From assembly GCA_902550325.1 (NCBI GenBank), contig CACCYT010000002.1, positions 1-53,928 on the forward strand: a stretch of 53,928 nucleotides of DNA, in the 5' to 3' direction. This document shows, in pieces, positions 30,175 through 51,147 of the stretch (the stretch's first letter is position 1; every line of letters starts with the position of its first letter). The notes below the pieces were generated by a model that worked only from the letters and a program-made list of their open reading frames with translations, made no database searches and was not told the DNA's origin. This DNA is from an uncultured Bacteroidota bacterium (GTDB lineage: Bacteria > Bacteroidota > Bacteroidia > Flavobacteriales > Flavobacteriaceae). The position numbers and the translations under genes are program-made.

Positions 30175-30334
30175 GACCTTAGGCAGATAAACATTGGTAA
30201 ACTCAACGCAAATTTTATTAAAAAAGGTGAGTCTGTTTGCTAGAGCGCGCCTGAAAAGGATTTTCGAATATCCAGTTAGCCTTAAACCTGTATAAACAGA
30301 GTTTATACAATCTTTCTGCCTTTAGGTCTTTTTT
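30175..30334 (+). ncRNA. ssrS: 6S-like RNA (ssrS) downstream of zapA
   Basis: A 160-base transcript-like element. The closing stem pairs GACC-TTA-GGCAGA (30175-30187) with TCTGCC-TTTA-GGTC (30315-30328), directly followed by six T, so the closing stem doubles as the terminator. Inside lies a perfect 9 bp hairpin TGTATAAAC/GTTTATACA (30289-30309) on the 3' side of the presumed central bubble, a feature of 6S RNAs, and a GC-rich upper part around GAGCGCGCC. 6S RNA mimics an open promoter and sequesters the housekeeping RNA polymerase. Identification rests on the fold and on the zapA neighbourhood; a covariance-model search has not been done. The 3' end overlaps the stop codon of galK on the other strand. 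Confidence 0.66.
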
Positions 30335-31437
30335 ATTGTAATACCGTTGTCAAGCATTGTTAAAATGGGGGTGGTTTCTTTTCCAAATTTTTTAAAATAA
30401 GCTTTACAACACTCATCTACAAATTGATCCACAAAGTCCTCCTCAATTAAGTTTATCGTGCAACCTCCAAATCCGCCACCCATCATTCTGGAGCCAATAA
30501 TTTTTTCATGTTTTCTAGTAAGGTCCACTAGAAAATCCAATTCCTCGCAACTTACTTCATAGAGTTTTGATAACCCATAATGTGATTCATACATCAGACT
30601 TCCAAATTCAAAAAGTTTATTTTTTTGCAATAGTTCAGCTGATTTAATCGTTCTTATATTTTCATTTAGTACAAAAGATGCTCTATTGTATACTTTGTTT
30701 GACAGAAGATTTCTTTTCTTATTTAATACTTTTACTGGAACCTTACATAGATAATCGTGTTTGGTACCACTATGGTCATTGATTATTTTCAAAGCATCAT
30801 TACATTCATTAACTCTTTCATTGTAAGCAGTATTTGCTAGATTATGTTCAATATTTGTATTTAATAGTAGAATTTTAAAATTTTTGAGATTAGAGGGTAT
30901 AAATTTAAAATCTCGATTATGACACTTCAATAAAATCAAGTTGTCTTTTTTTCCATTTAAAATGGTAAACTGATCCATTATTCCTCCTTTTAGTCCTATA
31001 TAGTTGTGCTCTACATCTAGAACTATATCAATAATTTTATTGTTGGATAGTTTAAGATTATTAAGTTCAAGTACTCCTTTTACTATTCCGCAAATAAGTG
31101 ATGAAGATGAACTAATTCCAGCGCCAATTGGCAGAAAGCTACTGATCTCACATGAGAAAGCACATAACTTCAAAAACTTTTTATTAATTAAGTTGTTGAT
31201 AGCACCAATAATGTAGTTTTCCCAGTGAACTTTTCGTTGACTTAAATCTGAAAAATTAAATCGGAACTCCTTGTCTAATGTCAATGATTTAATTAGACAT
31301 TCTTGTCCTTCAATTTTATTGAATTTAAATCGAATTTTTTTATCAATAGATCCGGGCAACACACAGCCACCATTATAATCAATGTGCTCCCCAATCATAT
31401 TAATTCTTCCTGATGACTCTACAATTAGACTACTCAT
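30322..31437 (-). CDS. galK: Galactokinase GalK
   Basis: GalK phosphorylates alpha-galactose at O1, the first committed step of the Leloir pathway. It is a GHMP kinase. The galactose-binding signature GRINMIGEHIDYNGG begins at residue 10, the ATP loop LPIGAGISSSSSL is at 102-114, GGIMDQF holds the catalytic Asp, and MMGGGFGGCT is GHMP motif 3. The 371 aa length is normal. The start overlaps the end of galE by 8 bases. With galE and the first sulfatase it forms an operon devoted to galactose from a sulfated glycan. No galT is found in the window. Confidence 0.96.
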   Translation of the reverse strand: MSSLIVESSGRINMIGEHIDYNGGCVLPGSIDKKIRFKFNKIEGQECLIKSLTLDKEFRFNFSDLSQRKVHWENYIIGAINNLINKKFLKLCAFSCEISSFLPIGAGISSSSSLICGIVKGVLELNNLKLSNNKIIDIVLDVEHNYIGLKGGIMDQFTILNGKKDNLILLKCHNRDFKFIPSNLKNFKILLLNTNIEHNLANTAYNERVNECNDALKIINDHSGTKHDYLCKVPVKVLNKKRNLLSNKVYNRASFVLNENIRTIKSAELLQKNKLFEFGSLMYESHYGLSKLYEVSCEELDFLVDLTRKHEKIIGSRMMGGGFGGCTINLIEEDFVDQFVDECCKAYFKKFGKETTPILTMLDNGITIKKT

Positions 31438-32440
31438 CTCTTAAATTTTTTTCCCAAAACCAAGATGACTTTAAAGCATCATCAACAGAATGTTTGCATA
31501 CCCATCCAATATTTTGTTTAATTTTTGAAACATCAGCGAAAGCAATTATAACATCACCCTTTCTTCTTTTACCAATTTTATAATTTACTTTAACATTATT
31601 AACCTTTTCAAATAAGTTTATCAATTCTAATACTGAAAGGCCTTCCCCAGTTCCTACATTATAAAATTCATAATTCTTCTTATTTTTTTTCTGAATTGAA
31701 TATTCCAAGCATGATACATGAACATCAGCTAAATCCTCAATATGTATATAATCTCTAATACATGTTCCATCGGGTGTGTTATAGTCATCGCCAAACACAA
31801 TTAATTGATCCCTTTTTCCAATCGCAGTTTGGGTTAAAAAAGGAACTAAATTTTCAGGTTTTCCCAGAGGAAGTTCTCCAATCAACCCGGAGCTGTGGGC
31901 GCCTATGGGATTAAAGTATCTTAAAGTAATATTATTAAAGTTAGGATTATTATCGCAAAATTTTTTTAAAATACTTTCACAAATTTGTTTTGTTTCACCG
32001 TATGGTGACTCACTTTTTTTGATGGGGAAATCTTCCTTAATTGGCATTTTATCAGCTTGACCATAAACAGTGCAGCTAGAGCTAAATATGAAGTGCATTT
32101 TTTCATCGATATTTTCCAATAAATTTTCAAGAGAACCAATATTATTTTTGTAATATTTTTCTGGGAAATTCACACTTTCATTAACGGATTTGTGAGCAGC
32201 AAAATGAATAATTCCATCAAAGCGATAATCACTAAAAAGTTTTTTTACTTCGCTTTTATTTTTTAGATCCTTTATTTCAAGATTAGGGTTTTTTCCAGTA
32301 ATTTTTTTGATTTTATCAAAAACATTTAATTTGGAATTTGACAAATCATCAACGATTACAACATCAAATCCCTTACTTATAAGTTCTACAGATGTATGCG
32401 AACCAATATAACCTAGTCCTCCAGTTACTAATATTTGCAT
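31430..32440 (-). CDS. galE: UDP-glucose 4-epimerase GalE
   Basis: GalE interconverts UDP-galactose and UDP-glucose with a bound NAD. It is an extended short-chain dehydrogenase. The Rossmann loop TGGLGYIGSHT is at residues 6-16, the catalytic Ser/Tyr/Lys appear as SSSCTVYG and YGETK, and RYFNPIGAHSSG is the GalE signature. The 336 aa length is typical. The ATG directly abuts the stop codon of the upstream sulfatase with no gap, and the 3' end overlaps galK by 8 bases, so the three are cotranscribed. Confidence 0.96.
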   Translation of the reverse strand: MQILVTGGLGYIGSHTSVELISKGFDVVIVDDLSNSKLNVFDKIKKITGKNPNLEIKDLKNKSEVKKLFSDYRFDGIIHFAAHKSVNESVNFPEKYYKNNIGSLENLLENIDEKMHFIFSSSCTVYGQADKMPIKEDFPIKKSESPYGETKQICESILKKFCDNNPNFNNITLRYFNPIGAHSSGLIGELPLGKPENLVPFLTQTAIGKRDQLIVFGDDYNTPDGTCIRDYIHIEDLADVHVSCLEYSIQKKNKKNYEFYNVGTGEGLSVLELINLFEKVNNVKVNYKIGKRRKGDVIIAFADVSKIKQNIGWVCKHSVDDALKSSWFWEKNLRDE

Positions 32441-34030
32441 TTATTCTAGAATAAGTTCTTCAACCTCTCCTAATTCATCACCTGTTATTTCCCCATATCT
32501 TTTAATCATTTCCTTTAGTTTTTCTGGATATTCATCAGAAAGATCATATTCTTGAGATGTGTCTGTATCTAGGTTGAATAAAAGATATTTTTTTGAATTA
32601 CCAACTTCAATATTTACAGATTCATTAAACGGTGAACCTTTGTACGGTGGTATCATAACCCAATTGTTTTGACGAAATGCTGTTCTTGAAGTTGCTTCTA
32701 AAACAAACTCTGTTCTTCCTTGTCCTTTATTTCTAAAAAAAACATCAGATAAATCAATACCATCTTTCGATTTAATGTCAGAACCAATTAGTGAAGAGAA
32801 TGATTCGAGAAAATCAATTTGCGTTACCAATTCATTTGATACTTGGGGTTTTATTTTTCCTTTCCAATATGTAATAAATGGGACTCTGGTACCGGCCTCA
32901 AATAAACTGTACTTTCCTCCTCTCAAGCCACCAAAAGGGTCATGATCGCCTAATTTTTCAACTGCATCATCAAAATAGCCGTCATTTAAAACTGGTCCAT
33001 TATCACTCGATATAATTATAATTGTATTATCAATTAAACCTTCATCTTCCAAATATTTATACATTTCACCAATACACCAATCTGCTTCAACAATTACGTC
33101 ACCTCTTGGTCCCATACCAGAACTACCCTCAAATCTGGGGTGAGGAGTTCTTGGAACATGAGGTTGCTGAAGAGTATAGTACAGAAAGAAAGGCTCGTCT
33201 TTAACAGAGCTGATATATTTTTTCGCTTCATCTAAAAATTTGTCAGCCATATCTATATCACTCCACATGGCACTTTTTCCTCCTCTTTGAAAACCTATTC
33301 TTGGCACTCCATTTACAATGGAACTATTATGACCATGGTGCCACATCATACTCAAGAGTTCGGGATTATTTAGACCAGTTGGTTCGCCCTCAAAGTTACC
33401 TCTAAAACTGACTTCAAGAGGATCACTTGGATCGAGGTTAACTACATTTCCATTTTCTATGTAGACTGTTGGAACTCTATCTTGAGTATCTGCCATAATA
33501 AATGAGTGGTCGAAACCAACTTCATTTGGTCCTGGTTTAACTTTGCTGTTGTAATTAATTGTGCCAAAAACAGCTTTTGTTTCTTTAATAATTTCTCTTG
33601 TCAAATTATTAACAACCAAATTTACTCTGTTATTCTCATTGCCAAGACCAATGTGCCACTTGCCAACAATTCCAGTGCTGTAACCCATTGATTTGAACAT
33701 TTTAGGAAGTGTCATTTCAGTTGTATCAATAATTAAATTTGCACCTGTCAAAATTTTAGCTTTGTTATTTCGCCATGGATAGGTACCAGTCATTAGTGCA
33801 TAACGACTAGGGCTACAGGTGGCAGAGCTTGCATATCCATTTGTAAATCGAATACCCTCATTTGCTATTTTGTCAATGTTGGGAGTTTGCAGTGTGCCTA
33901 AGCCATAAGAACTGACATCACCATAACCCAAATCATCAGCGTATATGATTATAACATTTGGCTTAGGTAAGTCAGTATTATTACAAGAAAAGAAACCAAT
34001 AAGTATTGATGCAAGAATAAATTTTTTCAT
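32441..34030 (-). CDS. Lipoprotein sulfatase (S1, resembles S1_15) cotranscribed with galE-galK
   Basis: This is a formylglycine-dependent sulfatase. The signal peptide ends in a lipobox with lipidated Cys16 (GFFSC), so it is membrane anchored. DD at 32-33 starts the calcium site, Cys72 in TCSPSRYALMTG is the residue converted to formylglycine, and GKWHIG and SSDNG are further active-site motifs. Segments around GFDHSFIMADTQDRVP and SMMWHHGHN recall subfamily S1_15, which includes galactose/GalNAc-6-sulfatases. This assignment is from memory. Translation of galE begins right at its stop codon, which supports a galactose-sulfate substrate. Length 529 aa. It is divergent from the next sulfatase. 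Confidence 0.93.
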   Translation of the reverse strand: MKKFILASILIGFFSCNNTDLPKPNVIIIYADDLGYGDVSSYGLGTLQTPNIDKIANEGIRFTNGYASSATCSPSRYALMTGTYPWRNNKAKILTGANLIIDTTEMTLPKMFKSMGYSTGIVGKWHIGLGNENNRVNLVVNNLTREIIKETKAVFGTINYNSKVKPGPNEVGFDHSFIMADTQDRVPTVYIENGNVVNLDPSDPLEVSFRGNFEGEPTGLNNPELLSMMWHHGHNSSIVNGVPRIGFQRGGKSAMWSDIDMADKFLDEAKKYISSVKDEPFFLYYTLQQPHVPRTPHPRFEGSSGMGPRGDVIVEADWCIGEMYKYLEDEGLIDNTIIIISSDNGPVLNDGYFDDAVEKLGDHDPFGGLRGGKYSLFEAGTRVPFITYWKGKIKPQVSNELVTQIDFLESFSSLIGSDIKSKDGIDLSDVFFRNKGQGRTEFVLEATSRTAFRQNNWVMIPPYKGSPFNESVNIEVGNSKKYLLFNLDTDTSQEYDLSDEYPEKLKEMIKRYGEITGDELGEVEELILE

Positions 34031-34073
34031 AAAAATAATTTTCTAAATTAGTTGTTATTGAAATACTAACTTA

Positions 34074-35488
34074 ATGAAAAAAATACTTCTATTTAGTCTC
34101 TTAGTCCTTTTTTCGTGTGAACCTAAAAACAACAATCTACCGAATGTGATTGTAATTTTAGTTGACGATTTGGGTTATGGTGATCTTGGCTTTACGGGAT
34201 CTAATGAGATTTCAACTCCCAATATTGATAGTTTAGCGGAAAATGGAGTAATATTTACAGACGGATATGTTTCATACGCTGTTTGTTCACCAAGCAGAGC
34301 AGGGCTAATTACAGGTAGATATCAGGATACATTTGGTTATGGACTGAACGCACTTTATACACCAAAAGATCCTAATATGGGACTTCCGTTGTCTGAATTT
34401 ACTATTGCAGATTTATTCAAAACGAAGAATTATAAAACCTTGGCTGTTGGGAAGTGGCATTTAGGAGCCCACGAATCATTAAGACCTTTAAACAGAGGAT
34501 TTGATGAATTTTTTGGTTTTTTAACTGGTGGTCACCAATATTTCCCTGAACAGTGGAATTTAGCTGATGAGACTGAAGTAAAGTGTAATTTTTGTGCCTA
34601 CAGAACTAAATTATTAAGAAATGAAGAAAGGATTAACGAGAATGAATATTTGACCGATGCTTTATCTCGAGAAACAGTTAGTTTTATTGATAAGAGCTCT
34701 AAATCCCCTTTTTTTATATATCTAGCTTATAATGCTCCACACGGTCCATTACAGGCTACTGAAAAATATTTAAAGAGATTCCCAAACATTAAAGACAAAC
34801 AAAGAAAAACATACGCAGCCATGGTAAGCTCAATTGATGATGGGGTAGGGCAGATAGTGGAAATTTTAAAGAAAAATGAAATTTATGATAATACCATTAT
34901 ATATTTTTTATCAGACAATGGTGGAGCTAGAAGTAATGCATCAAATAATGCACCTTTAAAATCTTACAAAGGAACCCTTTATGAAGGAGGAATAAGAATA
35001 CCATTTGTTATGCAATGGCCGAATGAAATTAAATCAGGTACTATTTTTAAAAAACCGATAATATCATTAGATATATTCGCAACAAGTAAGGCTATTATAA
35101 ACCCAGATCTTAAATTAAAAAATGAAATTCATGGTCAAAACCTGCTGCCTTATATAAAATGTAATGACGGTGGCTATCCACACGAATATCTTTATTGGAG
35201 AAATAATGGACATCAGCCTTACATTGAAAATGGAGTAAGAGCACGTTATATAACACACGCAGTGAGGTCCAAGAATTATAAAATGTTTATTAGAAGAGGG
35301 GACTCAATGCTCTTTGACTTGTCTTCAGACATAGGTGAAAAAAATAATATTATTGAAAAAAACAGACCTTTGTTTAATGAACTTGTCAAAAAAAGTGTGG
35401 AATGGAATAAAACTTTAATGGATCCAATTTTTTTGGGTCTTAGAGATGATGAATTATACAATAAACTCAATCCTGACAGGTATATTTA

Positions 35489-35492
<4 letters not shown>
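34074..35492 (+). CDS. Lipoprotein sulfatase (S1, resembles S1_19)
   Basis: This second formylglycine-type sulfatase has 472 aa. A lipobox with Cys15 (VLFSC) predicts a lipoprotein. DD at 31-32 and the active-site Cys71 in VCSPSRAGLITG are intact, as are GKWHLG, APHGPL and SDNGG. The stretch RGFDEFFGFLTGGHQYF resembles subfamily S1_19, which contains carrageenan sulfatases; I give this as a weak assignment. It is transcribed alone, with its stop overlapping that of the convergent third sulfatase by 4 bases. No clear promoter is visible in the 43-base divergent gap upstream. Confidence 0.92.
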
Positions 35493-40161
<4,669 letters not shown>

Positions 40162-40270
40162 AAAAATCATTTTATCTATTTTTTATCCTTTTTTTTATGA
40201 ATTTAATAGTCTTTAATTCAATTATTTATGATTTCCTTATAATTATTATCAGTAAAATTAGAATATGGTA

Positions 40271-40300
40271 TTGTGAAAAATAAAATTATTCATTACATTG
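40271..40300 (+). promoter_or_regulatory. Candidate promoter of susC
   Basis: TTG (40271-40273), a 20-base spacer and TACATTG (40294-40300) give the usual -33/-7 geometry of Bacteroidota promoters, though the -7 box lacks one T of TAnnTTTG. It would leave a leader of about 25 bases before the ATG at 40330. The rest of the 168-base gap after the GH2 gene is featureless A/T. Confidence 0.4.
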
Positions 40301-40329
40301 TACCCCAATACAACTATTAATTAATATAT

Positions 40330-43300
40330 ATGAAATCTTTTCGCTTTAACTTAATTAAAGCATTCTTCACTATATCATTATTGTTTGTTTCTGTTGGTCT
40401 TTTAGCCCAGCAATCTGTTTCGGGAACTGTTTCTGATTCTGATGGGAATCCAATACCAGGTGTTAGTATCGTAGAAAAAAATACAACAAATGGTACTGTT
40501 TCGGATTTTGATGGAAACTTTCAACTTTCTGTTGGTGAAAATGCTGTCCTTGTGTTTAGTTACATAGGATATATTACAATTGAACAAAACGTATCATCAG
40601 CATTGATGAGTGTTACTCTTGAGGAAGATGTAGCAAAATTAGATGAAGTCGTTGTCGTAGGTTATGGAGCTCAAACCAAAAAAACCTTAACAGGTGCAGT
40701 TGGTACAGTTTCAGCTGAACAACTTACATTAAAACCTGCACAGAACACCTCTGAGCTTCTGTTTGGAACTGTTGCTGGTCTTTCTGTTAGACAAACTGGA
40801 GCATTACCAGGATCTGACTTTGCAACTTTAAGAATAAGAAACTTTGGTGCTCCATTGGTTTTGGTTGATGGTATCCAAGCAACTTTCGGTCAAGTTGATC
40901 CAAATGATATTCAGTCGATTTCTGTTCTTAAAGATGGTGCGGCATCAATATATGGTTCTCGTGCAGGAAATGGTGTAGTTCTGATTACAACCAAAAGAGG
41001 AAGTGATGCTGCTGAAGGAGCAAAATTCTCTTATCATGGTACTACCACTTTTTCAACATTGACAACAAGACCAGATACAGTTGATGCACACCAATATGCA
41101 ACTTTAATGGAAGAAGTTGGTTTAGGTGCTGAAAATGAAATGCCCGATTATTTGGATTATGATCCCCAAAGACAAAGAGTTTTTAACAGTATAACAGGGG
41201 AAGATTTCGATGGTATTGATTGGTACGATGCTGCATACAGAAGCTGGACACCTCAGCAACAACACAATTTGAGCGCAAGAGGAAGAAGTAATAAAATTGG
41301 ATATTTTGTGTCTTTAGGTTTCACAGATACAGAAAGTGCATTTAGAGATGCTGATTTTAAACAAAATCGTTATAACATAAGAGCAAATTTGGATGCTCAA
41401 TTCAATGATAATTTAAGTGCACAAGTTGATATGTCATATTTTCAAACAACTCTTGACAGAGCAAATTTTGGAATAAATGAAATGTACAACAGGCTATCAA
41501 CTGGTAAACCAACTAACCTGGCTATATATCCTGATCCATCATATGCCTCTCATACAGGTACAGCAACTCCTTATTCACCCATATATGCCATGAGAAAAGA
41601 TTTCTCAGGAACAAGAGTTGATAGAGATAATAACTTAAGAGCTAGACTAGCTTTAACTTATGATGTGCCATTTATTGATGGTTTGGAGGCAACTGTAAGT
41701 ATTAATATGGAAGCTCAAAATGAATGGAATAAAAATATAGTAAAACAATTCCCGCTTTACACCTATGATCCATCTAGAGGAGAAGGTGATGCTGCTTATG
41801 TTCTATTTGGTACCAATCAAAGAGATCGTATAAGCGTTAATTCAGATAGAGATATGGAGTTACTTCCAAGAATTACATTGAATTATGAAAAGGAGTGGGA
41901 GGATCATAAACTTCTTGCAACTTTTGTAGCTGAGTCAACAACTTTTGAAAGGGATTTTATGTCTGCATCCAGAACTGACCCATTATCATTCGAAGCGCCT
42001 TATTTGAACTATTCTTCGGAGGCTGAAAGAGATAATGGAGAAATATTCTCTGAAAGCGCAAGATCGAGTTATGTAGGTAGGGTTAACTATTCTTTAAAGG
42101 ATAAGTATTTGTTCGAGGCAATTATGAGAGCTGACGCTTCTGCAAGATATTCCGTTGAGGGTCGTTGGGGTTATTTCCCAAGTTTAAGTGCGGCGTGGAG
42201 AATCTCTGAAGAAGATTTCATGGCAGATAATTCAGCCTGGAATAATTTAAAACTTAGAGCATCTTACGGAATAATGGGTAACGATGCTGTATCCAATTTT
42301 GACTTTTTAACTGGGTTTAATATTTCTAGTGGATTTTATTTATTTAATGGAGTACCTTATCCAATTATTTCATCAGCTGGTTTAGCAAATGCACTGATTT
42401 CGTGGGAAACAATGCAAATTGCCAATGTTGGTTTGGATGGTACACTTTGGGATGGAGCACTTGGGTTTGAATTAGATGTTTTCTATCGATTAAGAGAAGA
42501 TATTCTTGCTATACCTCAATCTGATATTCCTTTCCACTTTGGCGCATCTTTACCAAGAACAAATTTAAATTCAAGAGATAACCGTGGATTTGATTTGATG
42601 TTGACCCACAAAGGAAAAATTGGAGATGTTGAATATGAAGTAAATCCGATGATTTCCTACACAAGAGGTAAATATGTTGATTGGGAGGAAAATGTTAGAC
42701 CAACATCTGGTGATGATCTAACTGATGAACAAATTGCTGAAAATATCCTATGGAACGCTAGATATAACAGATCTGGTAAATGGGATGACCTTCAATGGGG
42801 ATTCCAAACAAATGGATTTTTCACAAATCAATCACAAATTGACAATCACCCAGTTGATATTGATTTAGCTGGAAACCAAACAATGATTGTTGGAAATTTG
42901 ATTTTTGTAGATCAAAATGGCGATGGAATAATAGACTGGAAAGATCAAGTTGTAATTGGTCAGTCTGGAATGCCAAAGTGGAATTTCAGTACATTCACAA
43001 GCTTCAGATGGAAAAATTGGAGTATTGATGCATTGTTCCAGGGTGCTACTGGATACACGGTTAACTTTACTTCAGCAGCCGGATACGGAGGAATTTCTGG
43101 ACATCAAACAGTAGCCAAAAAGTTCCAATATGAAAACAGATCGCTTTTGGGTGCCAATGGTGATATTGAAGTCTTGAGAAAATTTCCACCTGCTTTTACA
43201 ACTGGTGGTGTTCCACAGTCAGACCAAAGAGCAAACGATTTTACAAGGATTGATGCGTTTTATTTAAGATTAAAAACTTTAAATATAACTTACAATTTAC

Positions 43301-43521
43301 CAAAATCACTTACCAGCTCGTTGGGTCTTGATTATGTACAGGTTTATGGCTCTGGATCAAACGTTCTAACGTGGGATAACTTTGGAGTTTATTCAGGTTC
43401 ATACGACCCAGAAATTTTACAAGGCTATAATGATAGAGCAGCTGGTCAGGGAGACGGTGGTGTCGATAGAGCTTATCCTAACGTAAGAACTTGGACAGCA
43501 GGTCTTAAGATTGGATTTTAA
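40330..43521 (+). CDS. SusC/RagA-type TonB-dependent outer-membrane transporter
   Basis: This is the import pore of the glycan uptake complex, energised by TonB. After a signal peptide (1-26, ending LLAQ) comes a carboxypeptidase-like regulatory domain (SVSGTVSDSDGNPIPGVSI), the TonB box region (DEVVVVGYGAQ) and the plug domain with LVLVDGIQ, SISVLKDGAASIYGSRAGNGVV. A 22-stranded barrel follows and ends in an aromatic-terminated strand (TAGLKIGF). The 1063 aa length is standard. The susD partner follows directly. It is the only SusC in the window, so it should serve the whole sulfatase cluster. Confidence 0.97.
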   Translation: MKSFRFNLIKAFFTISLLFVSVGLLAQQSVSGTVSDSDGNPIPGVSIVEKNTTNGTVSDFDGNFQLSVGENAVLVFSYIGYITIEQNVSSALMSVTLEEDVAKLDEVVVVGYGAQTKKTLTGAVGTVSAEQLTLKPAQNTSELLFGTVAGLSVRQTGALPGSDFATLRIRNFGAPLVLVDGIQATFGQVDPNDIQSISVLKDGAASIYGSRAGNGVVLITTKRGSDAAEGAKFSYHGTTTFSTLTTRPDTVDAHQYATLMEEVGLGAENEMPDYLDYDPQRQRVFNSITGEDFDGIDWYDAAYRSWTPQQQHNLSARGRSNKIGYFVSLGFTDTESAFRDADFKQNRYNIRANLDAQFNDNLSAQVDMSYFQTTLDRANFGINEMYNRLSTGKPTNLAIYPDPSYASHTGTATPYSPIYAMRKDFSGTRVDRDNNLRARLALTYDVPFIDGLEATVSINMEAQNEWNKNIVKQFPLYTYDPSRGEGDAAYVLFGTNQRDRISVNSDRDMELLPRITLNYEKEWEDHKLLATFVAESTTFERDFMSASRTDPLSFEAPYLNYSSEAERDNGEIFSESARSSYVGRVNYSLKDKYLFEAIMRADASARYSVEGRWGYFPSLSAAWRISEEDFMADNSAWNNLKLRASYGIMGNDAVSNFDFLTGFNISSGFYLFNGVPYPIISSAGLANALISWETMQIANVGLDGTLWDGALGFELDVFYRLREDILAIPQSDIPFHFGASLPRTNLNSRDNRGFDLMLTHKGKIGDVEYEVNPMISYTRGKYVDWEENVRPTSGDDLTDEQIAENILWNARYNRSGKWDDLQWGFQTNGFFTNQSQIDNHPVDIDLAGNQTMIVGNLIFVDQNGDGIIDWKDQVVIGQSGMPKWNFSTFTSFRWKNWSIDALFQGATGYTVNFTSAAGYGGISGHQTVAKKFQYENRSLLGANGDIEVLRKFPPAFTTGGVPQSDQRANDFTRIDAFYLRLKTLNITYNLPKSLTSSLGLDYVQVYGSGSNVLTWDNFGVYSGSYDPEILQGYNDRAAGQGDGGVDRAYPNVRTWTAGLKIGF

Positions 43522-43547
43522 CAATAATAATATTAACTTTGAAAACT

Positions 43548-45272
43548 ATGAAAAAACTTATTTTATTTATATTCTCAATCACATTTGTTGTTGGTTGTGC
43601 AGACCTTGATTTGCAGCCAACTAACATGATTGCAGAGGATGCTGTAAAGAAGGATCCAAAATTGGTTGAAGCTTTCCTGACTAAGATATATGCCAATGCC
43701 GTTTTTGAGCCTAATGAAATGGCCAGTATTCCACAACAAAACCGTCTTACTGATGGTGTTGTTAGTGGTGAATATACTTTAATGGCGCCTTGGCAAGGGG
43801 CTATTCAAGCATCCGCCAATATACCAACCTCTGCTGGGTCACATGGCCTAATTAACAGATTTCATTATGGAAATATACGTTCAGCAAATGAAATTATTGA
43901 AATTCTAGCTGAAGCAAGTTTTGATCCAGCAACAGTTGCTGCTCAAACAGCAGAAGCTAAATTTCTTAGAGCCTGGATGTATTTAGATATGGCGAAACGA
44001 TATGGAGGTATGCCAATAGAGGATTCTGCCAAATCTATTGATGCAGAATATGATGAACTTATGATTCCTAGGTCGACCCTAAAGCAAACCTATGATTTTA
44101 TTTTATCTGATCTAGATGCTGCAATTGCTGACCTTCCTGGTATAGCTCTTAATGGTAAGGCGACCAAGTGGGCTGCTCATGCGTTAAAAAGTAGAGCAGC
44201 ATTATATGCAGCAAGAATTGCAAAATATCATCCTCAATCATCAAATGGTTTAACATCCATTCCCGCAGGTGATGCGAATGCATATTATCAAATGTCACAT
44301 GCATCTGCAAGTGCCGTTATTGACGGAGGAAAGCATCCTTTACACAGGGGTGGGGGTACATATCAAAAAACTTTTGGTGAAATTTTTTATCAAGGTACTA
44401 ACTCTGAACATATTTTTGTTGAAGAATATAATCTTGCATTAGGAAAAACTCACACTTGGAGTGGATATGGAATGCCTGACGGATTCAAAGCAGGGTGGGG
44501 TTCAAATATGCACCCTTACATCGCCTCTGATGCTAGATTTGAGCATAAGGATGGAACACCCGGTAATAAATATCACAATCTTTTCAATAACAGAACATTT
44601 TTTGACCTTGAGGAAGTTATTTACACAAAAGATCCAAGATATTTAGCAACATTTTTCACACCTGAGGAGGTATTTCAAGGAAGAGAAGTTTGGTTTCATG
44701 ATAATTCTGTTGGTGCTGGTACTTATAAAGGAAGAGCAGGAAACACTGCTCCTCAAAGATCTCCACCAAGAAACAGAAATAGGGGTGGTCGTCTACTTCA
44801 AAAGAGAATAGACCCTGCTATTGAGTTTCCGCCATTTGGAACTGATGAAACACCCTACATAGTATTGAGAACAGGAGAAATGTATTTGAATGGAGCTGAG
44901 GCTGCATTTGAAATGAATTTACCTGTCAGAGCTAAAGAGCTAGTCAATACTCTTAGAGGAAGAGTGGGTATGCCACCAAAAGATAATTTAACTCTTGATT
45001 TGATTAAAAATGAACGTTTTGTTGAATTGTTTGCTGAAAATCATCACTACTGGGATTTAAGAACATGGAGAGATGCTGAAGCTGCAATCCACATGAAAAC
45101 AAAGTGGGGAACAAAATGGATTAGAAGAAAGTCTGATGGTAAGTACAAAGCTAGAATGTGGAGATGGAATTTTTCACAAAATACTCCATTCCTTGAAAGA
45201 ATGTACTGGTTACCATTTGGAAATGGAAGAATGTCAGATAATCCAAATCTAGTAGAAAATCCTGGTTACTAA
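43548..45272 (+). CDS. SusD/RagB-type surface glycan-binding lipoprotein
   Basis: SusD-like proteins sit as a lid on the SusC barrel and hold the oligosaccharide. The signal peptide ends in a lipobox with Cys17 (FVVGC), followed by the typical ADLDLQPTN. The helical TPR-like scaffold is visible in AEAKFLRAWMYLDMAKRYGGMP, TKWAAHALKSRAALYAARIAK and the C-terminal RNERFVELFAENHHYWDLR-like segment. Length is 574 aa. The frame also allows a TTG start 9 bases upstream, but MKKLILFIF is the better signal start. It follows susC by 26 bases, and a terminator hairpin lies after it. Confidence 0.95.
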   Translation: MKKLILFIFSITFVVGCADLDLQPTNMIAEDAVKKDPKLVEAFLTKIYANAVFEPNEMASIPQQNRLTDGVVSGEYTLMAPWQGAIQASANIPTSAGSHGLINRFHYGNIRSANEIIEILAEASFDPATVAAQTAEAKFLRAWMYLDMAKRYGGMPIEDSAKSIDAEYDELMIPRSTLKQTYDFILSDLDAAIADLPGIALNGKATKWAAHALKSRAALYAARIAKYHPQSSNGLTSIPAGDANAYYQMSHASASAVIDGGKHPLHRGGGTYQKTFGEIFYQGTNSEHIFVEEYNLALGKTHTWSGYGMPDGFKAGWGSNMHPYIASDARFEHKDGTPGNKYHNLFNNRTFFDLEEVIYTKDPRYLATFFTPEEVFQGREVWFHDNSVGAGTYKGRAGNTAPQRSPPRNRNRGGRLLQKRIDPAIEFPPFGTDETPYIVLRTGEMYLNGAEAAFEMNLPVRAKELVNTLRGRVGMPPKDNLTLDLIKNERFVELFAENHHYWDLRTWRDAEAAIHMKTKWGTKWIRRKSDGKYKARMWRWNFSQNTPFLERMYWLPFGNGRMSDNPNLVENPGY

Positions 45273-45296
45273 CAAGGATTAATTTAAATAAAAAAA

Positions 45297-45323
45297 GGAT
45301 CTAATTTTATTAGGTCCTTTTTT
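45297..45323 (+). terminator. Terminator/attenuator hairpin between susD and the next sulfatase
   Basis: A 9 bp stem GGATCTAAT / ATTAGGTCC (one G-U pair in RNA) with a 3-base loop is preceded by seven A and followed by six T, so the stem can extend with A-U pairs. The T-tract ends 5 bases before the ATG of the sulfatase at 45329, so it must be passed for that operon to be transcribed from the susC promoter. Confidence 0.85.
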
Positions 45324-45328
45324 GTTTT

Positions 45329-46726
45329 ATGAGACTACTTTTTATTTTTATTTTATTTATTTTTTCATGCAATGAAAAAATTAGCAAGCCAAATCTAGTT
45401 TTTATAATTGTCGATGATCTTGGATGGAAAGATGTTGGTTATATGGGTTCAGATTTTTATGAAACACCCAACATCGACAAATTAAGTAACAATAGTACCA
45501 TATTTAATTCTGCATATTCTGCAAGTCCAGTTTGCTCACCTACACGAGCCTCAATAATGACGGGAAAGCATCATGTAAGAGTGAATATAACAGATTGGAT
45601 CCCTGGGGTTGACCCAAAAGATAGGTATTTGATTGGCCCTGAGGATGTTCACCAACTTCCAACAGAGGAACTCACGATTGGAGAAATATTACAATCCAAT
45701 GGATATTCAACAATTTATTCTGGTAAATGGCATTTGGGTGGACCCGGTTTTTATCCAGAAAATCAAGGGTTTGAAATTAATAAAGGTGGTTTTGAAAAAG
45801 GGAGCCCAATGGGAGGGTATTACTCACCCTATAAAAATCCTCGTCTTTCAGATGGACCTGAGGATGAATACTTAACAGATCGTCTGACAGAGGAGTCGAT
45901 ATCCTTTATTAAAGAAAGAGATAAAAACAAACCATTTGCTGTTTTTATATCTTTTTATAATGTTCACACACCCATTCAACCAAATTTGAAATATATTGAT
46001 TATTATAAAGATAAGCTCAAAACCTATTCAGATACTACAACTCAAACTGATATTGAGGGTGATGCAATCAGTGTGTTGAATCAACGAAATCCTGATTATG
46101 CTTCTATGGTTCATTCAACAGATGAAAATATAGGGAAATTAATATCATTTTTAAAACAGAGAAACCTGTATGATAACACACTTATTATTTTTACGTCAGA
46201 CAATGGAGGTCTATCAACACAAGCCAAAGTTGCTCCAACATCAACGAAACCACTGAGGGCTGGTAAGGGTTGGCTTTATGAGGGTGGTATTAGAATTCCT
46301 CAGTTAATAAAATATATTAATCAAAAACAACAAGATTTAAATAATATCCCAGTTGTTTCTTATGATCTTTTTACAACAATTGTTAATCATTTAAAGCTGG
46401 ATTACACTCATGAGAAAAAAGATGGAATAGACCTTTCAAATTTATCAAAGGAGAAAAACAAAAGGGATTATATTTTATGGCATTTCCCTCACTATCATGC
46501 TAGTCTTTGGAAACCAGGTTCTGCTATAAGAAATGGAGACTGGAAACTACTAAAGTTTTATGAGGAAAATAAGCTAGAATTATATAACTTAAAGGATGAT
46601 TTAAGTGAACAAAATGATCTTTCAAGTAAGTACCCTTTGGTAGTAAAAAAATTGAGTTATAAAATGGATGAAATGCTTGCTGAGATGAATGGTAAAGTAC
46701 CCACAATTAATCAAAATTTAAATTAA
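45329..46726 (+). CDS. Lipoprotein sulfatase (S1, resembles S1_16)
   Basis: This fourth sulfatase has 465 aa. Its lipobox cysteine is Cys14 (IFSC). DD (29-30) and Cys69 in VCSPTRASIMTGK form the active-site start, with SGKWHLGG and SDNGG further on. The segment around YPENQGFEINKGG, YYSPYKNP and EDEYLTDRLTEE is characteristic of subfamily S1_16, whose studied members remove 4-sulfate from galactose or GalNAc; the assignment is from recall. It starts immediately after the susD hairpin and heads a tight three-gene run with the fifth sulfatase and the esterase. Confidence 0.93.
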   Translation: MRLLFIFILFIFSCNEKISKPNLVFIIVDDLGWKDVGYMGSDFYETPNIDKLSNNSTIFNSAYSASPVCSPTRASIMTGKHHVRVNITDWIPGVDPKDRYLIGPEDVHQLPTEELTIGEILQSNGYSTIYSGKWHLGGPGFYPENQGFEINKGGFEKGSPMGGYYSPYKNPRLSDGPEDEYLTDRLTEESISFIKERDKNKPFAVFISFYNVHTPIQPNLKYIDYYKDKLKTYSDTTTQTDIEGDAISVLNQRNPDYASMVHSTDENIGKLISFLKQRNLYDNTLIIFTSDNGGLSTQAKVAPTSTKPLRAGKGWLYEGGIRIPQLIKYINQKQQDLNNIPVVSYDLFTTIVNHLKLDYTHEKKDGIDLSNLSKEKNKRDYILWHFPHYHASLWKPGSAIRNGDWKLLKFYEENKLELYNLKDDLSEQNDLSSKYPLVVKKLSYKMDEMLAEMNGKVPTINQNLN

Positions 46727-46731
46727 AAATT

Positions 46732-48336
46732 ATGAAAAAATATTATCTAATTCTTCTTATTACTTTATTCGCTTGTGAAAAGACTGATGATCGACCGAAC
46801 ATTTTATTTATAATGTCAGACGATCACGCATATCAAGCGATTAGTGCTTATGATGATAAATTAATAAATACACCAAATATTGACAGGCTTGCTGATGAAG
46901 GTATTTTATTCACAAATGCATGTGTAACAAATAGTATATGCGCACCATCAAGAGCTACAATTCTAACAGGAAAGTTTAGTCATTTGAATGGAAAAATTGA
47001 CAATCATTCTCCATTTGATACAACACAGGTTACTTTTCCTCAACTTTTTCAAAAAGCTGGTTATCAGACTGCTATGTATGGAAAATTACATTTTGGTAAT
47101 AATCCAAAAGGTGTTGATGACTTTATGATTTTGCCAGGTCAAGGTGATTATATTAACCCGAAATTTTTAACAAGAGGATACGATACAATTATCAAAGGAT
47201 ATGTTACGGACATTATTACTGACCTTACACTGGGATGGTTAAAAGAAAAGAGAGATAAAACCAAACCTTTTATGATGATGTATTTGCACAAAGCTCCCCA
47301 CAGGGCGTGGTGGCCAAGTGCTGAAAAGTTTGCTGAATTTTATGAAAAAGAGTTTCCGGAACCTGAAACTCTTTTTGATGATTATTCAAATAGGGGAACT
47401 GCCGCTAAAACTGCAGAAATGAACTTATTGACTCACATGCGATATATGGAGGATAGTAAAATTAGACCTACCACACTTGAAGAAATGGGTGGCGCACAAC
47501 CAGAGGTTGCATATGTTAGTGAAAAAAAACAACTAATTAGGGAAAATCCAAATCAGTTTTACAGTAGATATAACAGAGGAGATGCTGATCAAAGAGCTGC
47601 TTACGATGTTACATTGGACAAAATAAATGAAGACTTCAAAAAAAATTGGCCAATTATGAATGATACACAAAAAATGAAATGGAAATATCAGAGATATATG
47701 CAAGATTATCTTGCAACAATATCATCTGTTGATGACAATGTAGGAAAAGTACTTGATTATTTAGATGAGTCTGGACTTTCTGATAATACAATTGTGATTT
47801 ACACCTCTGATCAAGGTTTCTATTTGGGAGAACACGGTTGGTTTGATAAAAGATTTATTTATGATGAGTCATTCAAAACGCCTCTTTTAATAAGATGGCC
47901 AAATAAAATTAAAGCTGGAATTACTAATGATGAGATGGTTCAAAATTTGGATTTTGCTCAAACTTTTTTAGAAGCGGCTGGCATTGATGCCCCAAATGAT
48001 ATGCAAGGTGAAAGTTTAATTCCTTTACTGACTGAAAATGGAGAGGACTGGACTAGAGATGCAGTCTATTACCATTATTATGAGTATCCATCAGTTCACA
48101 TGGTAAAAAGACACTATGGTATAGTTAATAAAGACTATAAACTTGTTAGATTTTATTATGATGTTGATGAATGGGAACTTTATGATAGAAAGAATGATCC
48201 TAATGAAATGAATAATGTTTATAATGATTCGGAATACTCGGATATAGTTAGTGATCTAAAGATTCAACTGGTTAAAATGAGAAAAAAATATAAAGATTCA
48301 GAGGAATTAGATCAGAATTTTATTTATAAAAAATAG
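46732..48336 (+). CDS. Lipoprotein sulfatase (S1, resembles S1_11)
   Basis: This fifth sulfatase has 534 aa. Its lipobox cysteine is Cys15 (LFAC), followed by an acidic/charged EKTDD that could act as a surface-export signal. The metal-site pair is SDDH (30-32), and Cys70 in ICAPSRATILTGK is the formylglycine residue, with Ala in the second position. HKAPHRAWWPS and GEHGWFDKRFIYDES resemble subfamily S1_11, which contains GlcNAc-6-sulfatases. It follows the fourth sulfatase by 5 bases and precedes the esterase by 1 base. Confidence 0.93.
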   Translation: MKKYYLILLITLFACEKTDDRPNILFIMSDDHAYQAISAYDDKLINTPNIDRLADEGILFTNACVTNSICAPSRATILTGKFSHLNGKIDNHSPFDTTQVTFPQLFQKAGYQTAMYGKLHFGNNPKGVDDFMILPGQGDYINPKFLTRGYDTIIKGYVTDIITDLTLGWLKEKRDKTKPFMMMYLHKAPHRAWWPSAEKFAEFYEKEFPEPETLFDDYSNRGTAAKTAEMNLLTHMRYMEDSKIRPTTLEEMGGAQPEVAYVSEKKQLIRENPNQFYSRYNRGDADQRAAYDVTLDKINEDFKKNWPIMNDTQKMKWKYQRYMQDYLATISSVDDNVGKVLDYLDESGLSDNTIVIYTSDQGFYLGEHGWFDKRFIYDESFKTPLLIRWPNKIKAGITNDEMVQNLDFAQTFLEAAGIDAPNDMQGESLIPLLTENGEDWTRDAVYYHYYEYPSVHMVKRHYGIVNKDYKLVRFYYDVDEWELYDRKNDPNEMNNVYNDSEYSDIVSDLKIQLVKMRKKYKDSEELDQNFIYKK

Positions 48337-48337
48337 T

Positions 48338-49765
48338 TTGAAAAGTTATCTTTTAATATTAGTGAGTTTTCTGTGTTTTTTTAATCTTAACTCACAAATT
48401 CAGCCCAATCCTTTATTCAGTGATAATATGATTCTTCAGAGAAATTCTGATGTTAATGTGTGGGGAAAGGCAGATAAAGGAAAAGAGCTTTCTCTCAGTG
48501 TATCTTGGTCAGATAATAACTACACCACTAGAGTTGATAGTGATGGCTTTTGGCATTTAAATATTCCTACCCCTGAAGCTGGAGGTCCATATCATATCGA
48601 TATATTTTGTAATAATAACTCCCTAAAAATTAAAAATGTATTGATAGGTGAAGTTTGGGTTGCATCTGGACAATCAAATATGGAGATGACATTAGCTGGT
48701 TTTGATCGTGAGCCAGTTTTAAGATCTTTAGATATGATTGCAAATGCAAACAACCCCAATATCAGATTACTAACTGTAAAAAAGACATTTAGTGATGCTA
48801 GACTCAATAGTTTTGATGGAAATTGGGTTGAATCAAATCATAAAACAGCTTCAGCGTTTAGTGCAGTTGCCTATTCTTTTGCCAATTACTTAAATCAAGT
48901 TTTAGATATTCCAGTTGGTATAATTCTTACATCGTGGGGAGGTACACCAGCTGAAGCTTGGACTCCCTCAGAAACTCTTTCCAAAATACTAACTAAAGAG
49001 GAGTTAAGTTATAATTTTGAACACTTAGACGATAGACCATCTGTTCTGTTTAATGCAATGATAAACCCATTAATCCCTTTTAATATTCGTGGTGCTTTGT
49101 GGTATCAGGGAGAGGGTAATGTAGGTCGGGCACATAATTACACAATGCTCATGAATAGCATGATACAATCTTGGAGAGATGAGTGGAACATTGGAGATTT
49201 TCCATTTTATTTTGTTCAAATAGCCCCTAATGGTTGTTGTGGTAATATTGGGCGATCACAACAAGCTTTTTTGAGAGAGGCTCAGCTAAAAACCATGCAA
49301 ACAATGAAGAATACTGGAATGGTTGTTACTATTGACATTGGAAGTACTTTAACAATTCACCCACCTGAAAAAATATTGATTGGAAAGAGATTAGCTTACT
49401 GGGCTTTGGCTAAAGATTATGGATTTGATAGCCTTCCATATTCTGGACCTGTCTTTAAATCATTTAAAGTTTTAGGTAATAAAGCTTACGTAGATTTTGA
49501 TTATGCTGAGAGAGGAGTTACAAGTTATGGTAAAAAATTATCTGGATTTGAGATAGCTGGTGAGGATAAAATTTTTTACAATGCTCAAGCTGACATAGAT
49601 CCTCATTGGGGAGCAGGTTGGAAAAGAAGTAAATTAATGTTGACAAGTGAAAAAGTAAAGAATCCAAAATATATTAGGTACGGATGGACGAATTATATTG
49701 AGGGTATGCTTTATAACATACAGGGCTTGCCTGCATCATCATTCAGATCTGAGGAATCGAAATAA
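48338..49765 (+). CDS. Secreted SGNH esterase, sialate O-acetylesterase-like
   Basis: This probable carbohydrate O-acetylesterase has 475 aa. A signal peptide (1-19, ending NLNSQ) precedes an N-terminal beta-sandwich with the family pattern LFSDNMILQR. The nucleophile Ser113 lies in ASGQSNMEM, LWYQGEGN is the third SGNH block, and the catalytic His is in TIHPPEK. Flavobacterial relatives deacetylate various sugars, so true sialic acid activity is not implied. In this locus it may remove acetyl groups that block the sulfatases or the beta-galactosidase. The start is TTG, one base after the sulfatase stop. Confidence 0.9.
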   Translation: MKSYLLILVSFLCFFNLNSQIQPNPLFSDNMILQRNSDVNVWGKADKGKELSLSVSWSDNNYTTRVDSDGFWHLNIPTPEAGGPYHIDIFCNNNSLKIKNVLIGEVWVASGQSNMEMTLAGFDREPVLRSLDMIANANNPNIRLLTVKKTFSDARLNSFDGNWVESNHKTASAFSAVAYSFANYLNQVLDIPVGIILTSWGGTPAEAWTPSETLSKILTKEELSYNFEHLDDRPSVLFNAMINPLIPFNIRGALWYQGEGNVGRAHNYTMLMNSMIQSWRDEWNIGDFPFYFVQIAPNGCCGNIGRSQQAFLREAQLKTMQTMKNTGMVVTIDIGSTLTIHPPEKILIGKRLAYWALAKDYGFDSLPYSGPVFKSFKVLGNKAYVDFDYAERGVTSYGKKLSGFEIAGEDKIFYNAQADIDPHWGAGWKRSKLMLTSEKVKNPKYIRYGWTNYIEGMLYNIQGLPASSFRSEESK

Positions 49766-49951: not shown

Positions 49952-51100
49952 ATGAAAAATATAATTACTGTATTTTTTTGCATGATTATCCTCAATCTTG
50001 ATGGACAACAATGGGTTGATGATTCATGCAACAAAAAAGCTTCAAAAATTGTAAATCAAGGAATTAGCCACTTGGCAAATCTTGAATATGCTATGGCATA
50101 TGCGATGGCTAATGCTGCTCTGTTAATTGATGATGATTGTCAATGTGCTCATCTTGTAAAGGCTGGTGCAACTTCACCTGATGCAGATTGGGGCTCTAGA
50201 AAAGAAAAGTTAGATGCTGTAAATTTAGATAAGTTGAAGAGTGTAGAAAAGGTATGGTATACAATGCTTAAAGCTACCTTAACTGCAGACTCAGAAACTT
50301 ATCAAAAAACTTTATCAGATGGTCTAATTGCCAACCCTGAAAGTGCTCTTTTGAATTGGTTATCTCGTGATGCATTTAAATTTGAGGACAACAAAGAATT
50401 TGCTGATATGTTTCCACAATTGGCAGCTGGATCGTATAATATGATGGCTTATCAGTCATCAAGAGGAGCTAATGGCGAAGATCCAAATTTAGACAAAGCA
50501 TATGAGATGATTGACAAAAGCGCTGAGCTTCACGATGGTCCTAATATTTTTGATACTAAAGCTGAGATTGCAGCAGAAAATGGAGATTACGAAACAGCTT
50601 TATATAGTCAATTAAAGGCACATGATTATTCTTCATTTGGATCACAATACTGGCAAAATGCAGTTAAATATTGGCACAAACTAAATAAAGAAACAGTTGC
50701 AGATAACCTAAAAAAAGCTCAGGTTAATATGCAAAATGCTATCCTTGAAAAAAATGAGGAGGAATTTAAAAAATATATTTCTGATGATGAGACATTAGTA
50801 GTAGGGGATTCTAATTTAGGCGAATTTTACAACTACACTTTAGATAACCTTAATCAAGAGGCCCTAATTGATTGGGATAGTTTTGATATAAGAGATATTG
50901 ATGTTCATTTTTCATCAGATATGACAATGGCCTATCTGACTTTTTATGCTGACGGAGCTTATACTTTTAAGGAATCAGGTCAGACTGTTGATTACAATAC
51001 AAGAGCATCTGCTGTTTGGATTAGAACCGCCAATGGTTGGAAATCAATTCATGCAAATTGGGCTCCTTCTGAGGGTGGAATTGGAATTCCAAAGCAATAG
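49952..51100 (+). CDS. Secreted TPR-like protein with C-terminal SnoaL/DUF4440-like domain
   Basis: The product of 382 aa has a signal peptide (1-18, ending LDGQ). The first 270 residues are helical with TPR-like repeats (ALLIDDDCQCAHLVKAG; DTKAEIAAENGDYETALYSQLKAH). The last 110 residues form an alpha+beta domain of the SnoaL/DUF4440 kind (MQNAILEKNEEEF followed by strands ending in SAVWIRTANGWKSIHANW). No catalytic residue can be named. It follows the PUL on the same strand but 186 bases away and with its own candidate promoter, so membership in the PUL is open. A strong terminator follows. Confidence 0.75.
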   Translation: MKNIITVFFCMIILNLDGQQWVDDSCNKKASKIVNQGISHLANLEYAMAYAMANAALLIDDDCQCAHLVKAGATSPDADWGSRKEKLDAVNLDKLKSVEKVWYTMLKATLTADSETYQKTLSDGLIANPESALLNWLSRDAFKFEDNKEFADMFPQLAAGSYNMMAYQSSRGANGEDPNLDKAYEMIDKSAELHDGPNIFDTKAEIAAENGDYETALYSQLKAHDYSSFGSQYWQNAVKYWHKLNKETVADNLKKAQVNMQNAILEKNEEEFKKYISDDETLVVGDSNLGEFYNYTLDNLNQEALIDWDSFDIRDIDVHFSSDMTMAYLTFYADGAYTFKESGQTVDYNTRASAVWIRTANGWKSIHANWAPSEGGIGIPKQ

Positions 51101-51114: not shown

Positions 51115-51147
51115 AAAAAACTCAGCTTAAGTGCTGAGTTTTTTTTT
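51115..51147. terminator. Bidirectional terminator between convergent genes
   Basis: A 12-pair stem including A-U pairs (AAAAAACTCAGC / GCTGAGTTTTTT) with a 6-base loop TTAAGT. A-tract and T-tract flank it on both sides, so it can end transcripts from either strand. The stop codon of the minus-strand membrane gene (51127-51129) lies in the loop. Confidence 0.92.

Follow-up and report, generated by a model that had tools for sequence, protein, structure and literature searches.

The stretch of DNA analysed here, called the window throughout, comprises bases 1-53928 (53,928 nucleotides in full) of contig C2 (135,555 bases) in the assembly GCA_902550325.1 of an uncultured flavobacterium, and this work deals with a cluster of genes in its second half: five sulfatases, a GH2 glycosidase, a SusC/SusD pair and a SASA-type esterase, with galE and galK alongside. 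The cluster is a real and conserved polysaccharide utilization locus (PUL), familiar in its general type and unusual in its mixture of sulfatases; what the present analysis adds is the address that the locus shares with those of its relatives, its two-module build and the absence of galT. A preliminary description, starting at position 32441, had listed all these genes, and each is found in its place, galE and galK sitting just left of that start. Beyond its inventory there are an AraC-type regulator gene at 51992-52867 and, past the end of the window, a continuation of the contig with two sulfatases and a GH10 gene. The features are the following, with model scores in bits.

30322-31437, minus strand: galK, galactokinase (TIGR00131 gal_kin, 254.8 bits, cut-off 226.65; GalKase_gal_bdg; motifs GRINMIGEHIDY, GAGISSS and GGIMDQ)
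31430-32440, minus strand: galE, UDP-glucose 4-epimerase (TIGR01179, 379 bits, cut-off 262)
32441-34030, minus strand: S1_15-type sulfatase, predicted galactose-6-O-sulfatase (PF00884, 183 bits; CSPSR; lipoprotein-like N-terminus)
34074-35492, plus strand: S1_19-type sulfatase, predicted galactose-4-O-sulfatase, possibly endo-acting (PF00884, 217 bits; CSPSR; lipoprotein-like N-terminus)
35489-36976, minus strand: S1_8-type sulfatase, predicted galactose-2-O-sulfatase (PF00884, 128 bits; CSPNR)
36928-40161, plus strand: GH2 LacZ-type beta-galactosidase (five GH2/LacZ Pfam domains above cut-off)
40330-43521, plus strand: SusC-type TonB-dependent transporter (TIGR04056, 763 bits, cut-off 368; Plug)
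43539-45272, plus strand: SusD-type surface glycan-binding lipoprotein (SusD_RagB, 120 bits)
45329-46726, plus strand: S1_16-type sulfatase, predicted 4-O-sulfatase on galactose or N-acetylgalactosamine (PF00884, 184 bits; CSPTR; lipoprotein-like N-terminus)
46732-48336, plus strand: S1_11-type sulfatase, predicted 6-O-sulfatase on N-acetylglucosamine (GlcNAc) or an equivalent (SGSH_C, 241 bits; PF00884, 193.5 bits; CAPSR; lipoprotein-like N-terminus)
48338-49765, plus strand: SASA-type SGNH carbohydrate esterase, predicted acetylesterase (PF03629, 66.5 bits)
49952-51100, plus strand: secreted DUF4440-domain protein (PF14534), kept beside the locus in most relatives read
51127-51984, minus strand: membrane protein with LPG-synthase transmembrane region (LPG-TM; PF03706, 102 bits), kept with the AraC gene
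51992-52867, minus strand: AraC-type regulator, candidate regulator of the core module (HTH_18, 65.7 bits; synteny)
30201-30304, plus strand: 6S-Flavo RNA, a landmark of the address and outside the function (RF01685, 90.1 bits, gathering score 85)

What identifies the cluster as a PUL are the adjacent SusC and SusD genes, both above their cut-offs and accompanied by GH2, sulfatase and esterase genes, with synteny in sister genomes. The earlier claim of a single SusC/SusD pair is true of the locus only, since SusD occurs at three further places in the own assembly (contigs C16, C27 and C32), each time adjoining a SusC homolog. All five sulfatases match PF00884 (127.6-217.3 bits, cut-off 25), carry the C-x-P-x-R formylglycine motif and are of the Cys type, and five are observed in 17.3 kb where 0.27 would be expected (Poisson P ~9e-6); the own assembly (979,612 bases in 45 contigs, 57.9% complete) has 15 altogether, or 15 per Mb. 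The GH2 protein falls slightly below the cut-off of NF052611 (978.5 bits, cut-off 999), reaches 786 bits with the solved beta-galactosidase 6sd0 and has the motifs GNE at 487 and EYSHAMGN at 569; the start given by the open reading frame (ORF) tool is a TTG that overlaps the divergent sulfatase gene, and the real start may lie downstream. For the Leloir pathway, galK and galE both exceed their cut-offs. The lipoprotein remarks in the list are N-termini read by eye.

The assignment of the sulfatases to five different subfamilies (S1_15, S1_19, S1_8, S1_16 and S1_11), already proposed in the preliminary description, agrees with the nearest solved structures by bit score. The S1_15 protein has eight chains at 424-593 bits followed by a drop to 164, with 593 bits to 7ozc (named ‘Arylsulfatase A’ in the PDB table, and which we take to be a particular enzyme of Bacteroides thetaiotaomicron), 459 to S1_15A and 449 to S1_15B, whilst the S1_11 protein reaches 510 bits with 5g2v (‘N-acetylglucosamine-6-sulfatase’, presumably BT4656) and 330 with 7lha, an enzyme for L-galactose-6-sulfate (L-Gal-6S). 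The S1_19 protein matches 6bia at 373 bits, a chain labelled S1-19 at 356 and the exo-acting S1_19B (6prm) at 325; the S1_8 protein has 275 to S1_8A (9bb9), 181 to S1_8B and 167 to S1_8C; and the S1_16 protein 347 to 9fo1, itself named S1_16, a small margin over the 326 of 6ust. S1_8A acts on galactose-2-sulfate, and S1_15A and S1_15B on galactose-6-sulfate (PMC12549532). An N-sulfated hexosamine, which had been thought a possible constituent, finds no support in the S1_8 protein, whose nearest solved relative is S1_8A, though other S1_8 members do act on N-sulfated glucosamine. Nor is it safe to call the enzyme set all exo-type, as had been done, because the S1_19 protein has its best solved match in 6bia, the S1_19A of P. 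fuliginea, which PMC6923384 gives as an endo-4S carrageenan sulfatase. For the S1_11 protein a target of GlcNAc-6-sulfate (GlcNAc-6S) or an equivalent sugar is predicted from its relatives, and L-Gal-6S is also possible; one recognition triad in S1_11 serves both sugars, according to PMC10154612.

Conservation of the locus was followed across 60 genomes, 23 of the same genus and 37 others (designated by G numbers, with L numbers for the stretches read). The genus assemblies are small (0.9-1.5 Mb, 55-87% complete), and the GC content of the window is 30%. At E 1e-40 or better, 13 of the 23 genus genomes have a SusD match, as do three of the 37 others, two of these at just 33% identity; S1_11 matches (E 1e-100 or better) are found in 18 of the 23, and GH2 matches (E 1e-60) in 10. 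The SusD of four genomes (G000, G021, G007 and G010) is at least 90% identical to that of the window, and sulfatases lie beside SusC/SusD, or one gene off, in 15 neighbourhood maps. SusD stretches 72-92% identical to the window's are also carried by 11 named contigs: seven of uncultured Bacteroidetes with AG- names (presumably surface-ocean single-cell genomes), two of Cryomorphaceae bacterium MED-G14, one of a Flavobacteriaceae metagenome-assembled genome (MAG) and one titled Opitutia. This last contig, NZKY01000064.1 (L029), from a MAG and with a SusD 90% identical to the window's, is probably mis-binned. The host group is apparently one of small-genomed, uncultured marine flavobacteria; the name MED-G14 was not met in the sulfatase and PUL literature, among the matches listed.

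The address of the locus is shared as well. In every galK neighbourhood read, 12 in all (11 from the genus, plus G026 from another genus), galE adjoins galK. In all 11 genus genomes in which the left flank was read (G000, G001, G002, G004, G011, G016, G017, G018, G019, G021 and G022) the galK-galE pair has the same neighbours, an M23 peptidase gene and small ORFs, and farther out on that side, in stretches that extend far enough, come cysteine desulfurase, spoU and relA. The right flank, where read, holds the DUF4440 gene (absent in G016), the LPG-TM gene and the AraC gene. A zapA-like ORF is present in the window (29872-30156, named by sequence look) and in the five relatives' genomes examined for it; in the window, where the 6S-Flavo RNA was searched for, that RNA directly follows this ORF and marks the left edge of the variable island. 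Beside the AraC gene of G017 stand genes for a 3-keto-disaccharide hydrolase-type protein and a GFO/IDH/MocA-type oxidoreductase (L049:4613-7367, the pair compared with Pfam), and look-alikes of the two are seen beside AraC in G001, G002, G016, G019 and G022, and near the distant SusCD of G024.

A module of SusC, SusD and sulfatase genes lies between galE and the S1_11 gene in G000, G021, G002, G017, G001 and G019, as well as in G026, and a partial view of the same arrangement is given by G013, G010, G006 and G011 (in G011 the module sulfatases run up to the contig end and SusD was not found). In G022, G018 and G016 SusC/SusD are not interposed, galE and S1_11 facing each other directly, and G022 lacks the esterase there as well; the gene positions in G003, G012 and G015 are compatible with this second arrangement. 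G016 and G022 carry the SusCD module on a different contig, where it lacks GH2 and adjoins a sodium:solute symporter (the one of G016 being that compared with Pfam), and the SusD of G012 is likewise on a contig other than the core's. The locus looks like a composite, made of a core (galK, galE, S1_11, esterase, DUF4440 and AraC) and a mobile module (S1_15, S1_19, S1_8, GH2, SusC, SusD and S1_16). Trees of SusC and SusD put G026 with G017-type genomes, in conflict with the tree of three core genes. Built on few genes and with SH-like supports, the trees give a hint that the module has been exchanged. In the seven loci that could be read from galE to the esterase (the six genus genomes with the full arrangement, and G026) each ORF of at least 100 aa matches a sulfatase, GH2, SusC, SusD, the esterase or a short SusC-plug-like protein. 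The latter, a stand-alone TonB plug protein of ~146 aa with a lipoprotein-like start, lies between SusD and S1_16 in G017 (L049:16847-17287, the copy matched to Pfam Plug), with equivalents in G001, G002, G006, G013, G019 and G026 and none in the window. Several relatives have an S1_8 protein just ~30% identical to the window's, plus an extra sulfatase (~39% identical to S1_16).

We consider it probable, with room for doubt, that the substrate of this PUL is a galactose-rich glycan that bears sulfate and some acetyl groups and has beta-linked galactose as its non-reducing termini. What the sequences themselves establish is the gene content, the families, their conservation and the formylglycine motifs; the glycan is inferred, with the family and structure matches, the spread of SusD in the genus and the galE-galK adjacency in its favour. 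Its fragments would be carried across the outer membrane by SusC/SusD and then processed, presumably in the periplasm and perhaps in the order given here. The sulfatases, matured by a formylglycine-generating enzyme with candidates elsewhere in the genome, would desulfate galactose at 4-O (S1_19 and S1_16), 6-O (S1_15) and 2-O (S1_8), S1_11 would take the 6-O sulfate off a GlcNAc-like sugar, and the esterase would strip the acetyl groups. This way, the GH2 beta-galactosidase could cut each terminal galactose once desulfated, as in the lambda-carrageenan pathway, for which S1_8 and S1_15 sulfatases together with a GH2 active only after desulfation have been demonstrated biochemically (PMC12549532). 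The freed galactose would pass to GalK and GalE, and the AraC protein may regulate the system. The initial cut of the chain would be made either by the same cell, using a distal GH16 or another enzyme, or by other organisms.

Several observations weigh against this interpretation. The locus lacks genes for an alpha-galactosidase, an anhydrogalactosidase and a hexosaminidase, so that its genes alone could not finish alternating alpha/beta galactans or GlcNAc chains. The GH2 seems dispensable, since G016 and G022 retain SusCD and sulfatases without it and the locus of G019 has neither GH2 nor S1_19. As to sulfatase maturation, it speaks for the interpretation that each of 24 genomes has matches to PF03781, the domain of formylglycine-generating enzymes, and that 21 of these, the own genome included, have its strongest type (261-275 bits); against it, G001, G004 and G018 have weaker types only. 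Given that the domain is also found in other proteins, the matches are candidate formylglycine-generating enzymes. Finally, galT is missing in all 23 genus genomes, which leaves the galactose route incomplete on paper.

PF01087 detects no galT in any of the 23, its positive control being matched in 6 of 14 named genomes, and the GalT of G026 (195 bits to PF01087), used as a query, has no match in the 12 genus genomes searched and matches G026, G024 and G035. galK is present in 17 of the 23, and the chance that all 17 galK-bearing assemblies miss a galT actually present is ~1.5e-10, taking completeness as the detection rate and the genomes as independent. The gene order of G026 is galE-galK-galT-RNase Y; in the genus, the 11 neighbourhoods that can be read beyond galK show no galT there, and the 517-537-aa gene that follows galK in L091, L092, L093 and L095 is RNase Y by sequence look (the G026 copy being the one tested). 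This absence is not unprecedented, as the same gap, galK/galE without galT, is reported for Persicobacter sp. CCB-QB2, with an HIT protein proposed as substitute (PMC5300873). A candidate substitute is the nucleotidyltransferase at L008:4977-5810, with 47.1 bits to NTP_transferase (cut-off 21.2) and with the NCBIfam sugar-nucleotide models far below their cut-offs. PF01704 (UDPGP) has no match in 24 genomes, a result that is uninformative as its control matched nowhere.

As the preliminary description had it, no endo-acting glycosidase is recognised in the locus of the window, and there is none either in the seven sister loci read from galE to esterase. Genome-wide searches, made for GH16 and GH10 (not for GH82, GH150, GH110, GH117, GH127 or polysaccharide lyases), found no depolymerase for the locus glycan in the own genome; the silence of this assembly is weak evidence because it is 58% complete. 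Its single GH16 is laminarinase-like (182 bits to 4bq1), which rules it out as a galactanase. GH16 occurs in 22 of the 23 genus genomes, with frames of 518-582 aa that resemble the own copy and two shorter stand-alone types, sorted by sequence, that are spread over 17 of the 23: GH16b in six (G004, G011, G013, G015, G018 and G019) and GH16c in 11 (G001, G003, G005, G007, G008, G009, G010, G016, G020, G021 and G022). No genome has both, in assemblies too incomplete to lean on, and a further weak GH16 in G018 fits neither type. The two GH16b proteins tested (G013 and G019) align with the NCBIfam kappa-carrageenase model over nearly its full length at ~95 bits, far under its curated cut-off of 350. 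In G013 (L089:7429-9981) a single ORF of 101 aa separates GH16b from a sulfatase that shares 41% identity with the window's S1_19, and the stretch read holds no SusC/SusD homolog; no sulfatase lies beside the GH16b of G019 (L090). GH16c has no assignment, the best NCBIfam match of the G021 copy being the EglC model at 43 bits (cut-off 700), and in the one long stretch read around a GH16c gene (L088) neither sulfatases nor homologs of SusC/SusD or GH2 flank it. Two right-handed beta-helix proteins of 541 and 594 aa (23.5 and 36.5 bits to PF13229, cut-off 25.9) follow within ~11 kb after the relocated SusCD module of G016 (L046:6883-10282); further on come a second GH2-type gene and an enolase-superfamily gene, and between them genes resembling KDG kinase, aldolase and aldehyde dehydrogenase. 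G022 has genes of a size matching those near the G016 module.

A depolymerase just outside the locus was what the preliminary description had named as evidence against itself, and formally there is one, because GH10 is an endo-type family: past the window, contig C2 has a GH10 gene (56132-57484) that stands between two sulfatase genes, one at 54733-56130 and the other, accompanied by an esterase-like gene, at 61201-62553. The GH10 lies 6.4 kb away from the locus, and the gene immediately before it encodes an S1_8-like sulfatase; the surroundings of the GH10 suggest xylan, and on that ground we ruled it out as the depolymerase of the locus. The sulfatase-GH10 pair itself (C2 54733-57484; L001:5733-8484) is probably a sulfated-xylan piece. 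It lies beyond the M48 gene in G000, G021, G010, G017 and G001 and is not directly there in G002 and G019; G019 has a GH10 further along the same contig, and G002 and G022 have SusD and no GH10. The own assembly has four GH10 genes, two of which form part of a xylan-type PUL on contig C16 (L010) that also has GH43, a sulfatase and SusC/SusD, together with genes resembling xylose isomerase, xylulokinase and a symporter (by sequence look). On contig C1 (L004:4941-12310) a beta-helix protein with a GH120 insertion domain, a GHL6 protein and two sulfatases are encoded one after another, with no SusC/SusD. Another sulfatase gene (L009:1167-2741) is wedged between an apparent trpB (L009:1-1170) and trpA (L009:2734-3498).

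Who makes the first cut can be read in two ways. The cell may cut the polymer by itself and be no scavenger at all, in which case the gene of its endo-enzyme (some stand-alone GH16, a beta-helix protein or a member of a family without a Pfam model) would be outside the locus, or it may depend on oligosaccharides from other microbes or algae and have no depolymerase of its own for this glycan. The chances of a distal depolymerase seem to us close to balanced: the endo-carrageenases of Zobellia lie outside its carrageenan PUL (PMC5698469), and the incompleteness of the own assembly leaves space for such an enzyme, but the scores of GH16b are low, only two of the 13 SusD-bearing genus genomes have it (G013 and G019) and none of the four with a SusD nearest to the window's does, GH16c has no fitting neighbours and the own GH16 is laminarinase-like. 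The scavenger proposed in the preliminary description is a reasonable hypothesis, suggested by the lack of any unassigned ORF of at least 100 aa between galE and the esterase in the seven full loci, by the small size of the assemblies and by the AG- contig names with their presumed surface-ocean origin, yet it is rather doubtful, as the absence rests on incomplete genomes and on the GH16 and GH10 searches alone, and the variant locus of G016 has those unassigned beta-helix proteins nearby. With the stand-alone GH16 genes of the relatives and the G016 beta-helix proteins in view, a distal depolymerase is likely enough that scavenging cannot be preferred. We regard as unlikely the broader picture of a genus living partly on short sulfated galacto-oligosaccharides made by others, with a position-fixed, cargo-swapping sulfatase island, a depolymerase that was shed, and a galT-less route using some other galactose-1-phosphate uridylyltransferase.

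Other readings concern the substrate rather than its supply. The core might serve another substrate than the SusCD module, in which case the mix of sulfatases would stand for two glycans at one address; the genomes in which galE faces S1_11 without SusCD (or seems to), those with SusD on another contig and the conflicting trees make this a possibility to be taken seriously, if a tentative one. On the other hand, the trees were built on few genes, and G026 has the composite arrangement in a different genus, so that this arrangement may go back to a common ancestor and have been under selection as a whole. A host-type or GlcNAc-containing sulfated glycan, similar to keratan or mucin, in place of an algal galactan is improbable: the S1_11 protein scores higher with 5g2v, a GlcNAc-6S enzyme, than with 7lha, which acts on L-Gal-6S, and S1_11, S1_15 and S1_16 are among the at least five subfamilies that B. 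thetaiotaomicron uses on mucin O-glycans (PMC10154612), whereas the relatives of the S1_8 and S1_19 proteins are carrageenan enzymes and a look at the locus alone showed no hexosaminidase. Least credible of all is a sulfated xylan-galactan depolymerized by the GH10 beyond the locus. Its position directly after an S1_8-like sulfatase would fit, but S1_8 also includes xylose-2-sulfatases (PMC12549532), the DUF4440, LPG-TM, AraC and M48 genes and a 157-aa ORF lie between it and the locus, and neither its patchy presence in the relatives nor the xylan-type PUL on C16 speaks for it.

Sulfated galactans make up a large share of algal carbon, one whose fate has been poorly traced. A locus common to much of an uncultured genus offers defined enzymes with which to ask which galactan arrives, and whether it is cut by the cell itself or taken up as leftovers, and the absence of galT suggests that one step of galactose use in these cells is still to be assigned.

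No PUL with the same gene set was met in the literature searched, which is no proof that none is in print. The small marine flavobacterial genomes of the NS5 marine group (PMC9122927) resemble the present ones, with 30% GC in two of four genera and 2-24 sulfatases per Mb across species (15 here); among the clusters met there, fucosidase-sulfatase and TRAP-transporter ones, none had this make-up. The mucin O-glycan sulfatases of B. thetaiotaomicron include S1_11, S1_15 and S1_16 used on one glycan type, but their PULs are directed at host glycans (PMC10154612), and there is no S1_4 or S1_20 among the window's five. That the mixture is unlike textbook carrageenan, agar or ulvan loci, as stated in the preliminary description, holds for the carrageenan systems compared. 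The kappa/iota-carrageenan pathway of P. fuliginea PS47 (PMC6923384) shares the S1_19 4-O-sulfatase, and the carrageenan regulon of Zobellia galactanivorans (PMC5698469) shares S1_19 and GH2. In contrast to both, the window's locus is without GH16, GH82, GH127, GH129, GH167 and anhydrogalactose genes; the marks of kappa/iota-carrageenan use (GH127/GH129/GH167 or a carrageenase in the cluster) are not in the locus, GH16 being the one searched genome-wide. Finally, in comparison with the lambda-carrageenan PUL of Pseudoalteromonas distincta U2A (PMC12549532), from another phylum, the locus has no GH150 or GH110, nor an unassigned ORF of at least 100 aa to hold either (neither was searched genome-wide), and we do not count it as a member of that type. 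It adds S1_19, S1_16, S1_11, the esterase and SusC/SusD to what the two have in common, namely S1_8, S1_15 and GH2, the window's S1_8 protein being nearest to the S1_8A of that very system.

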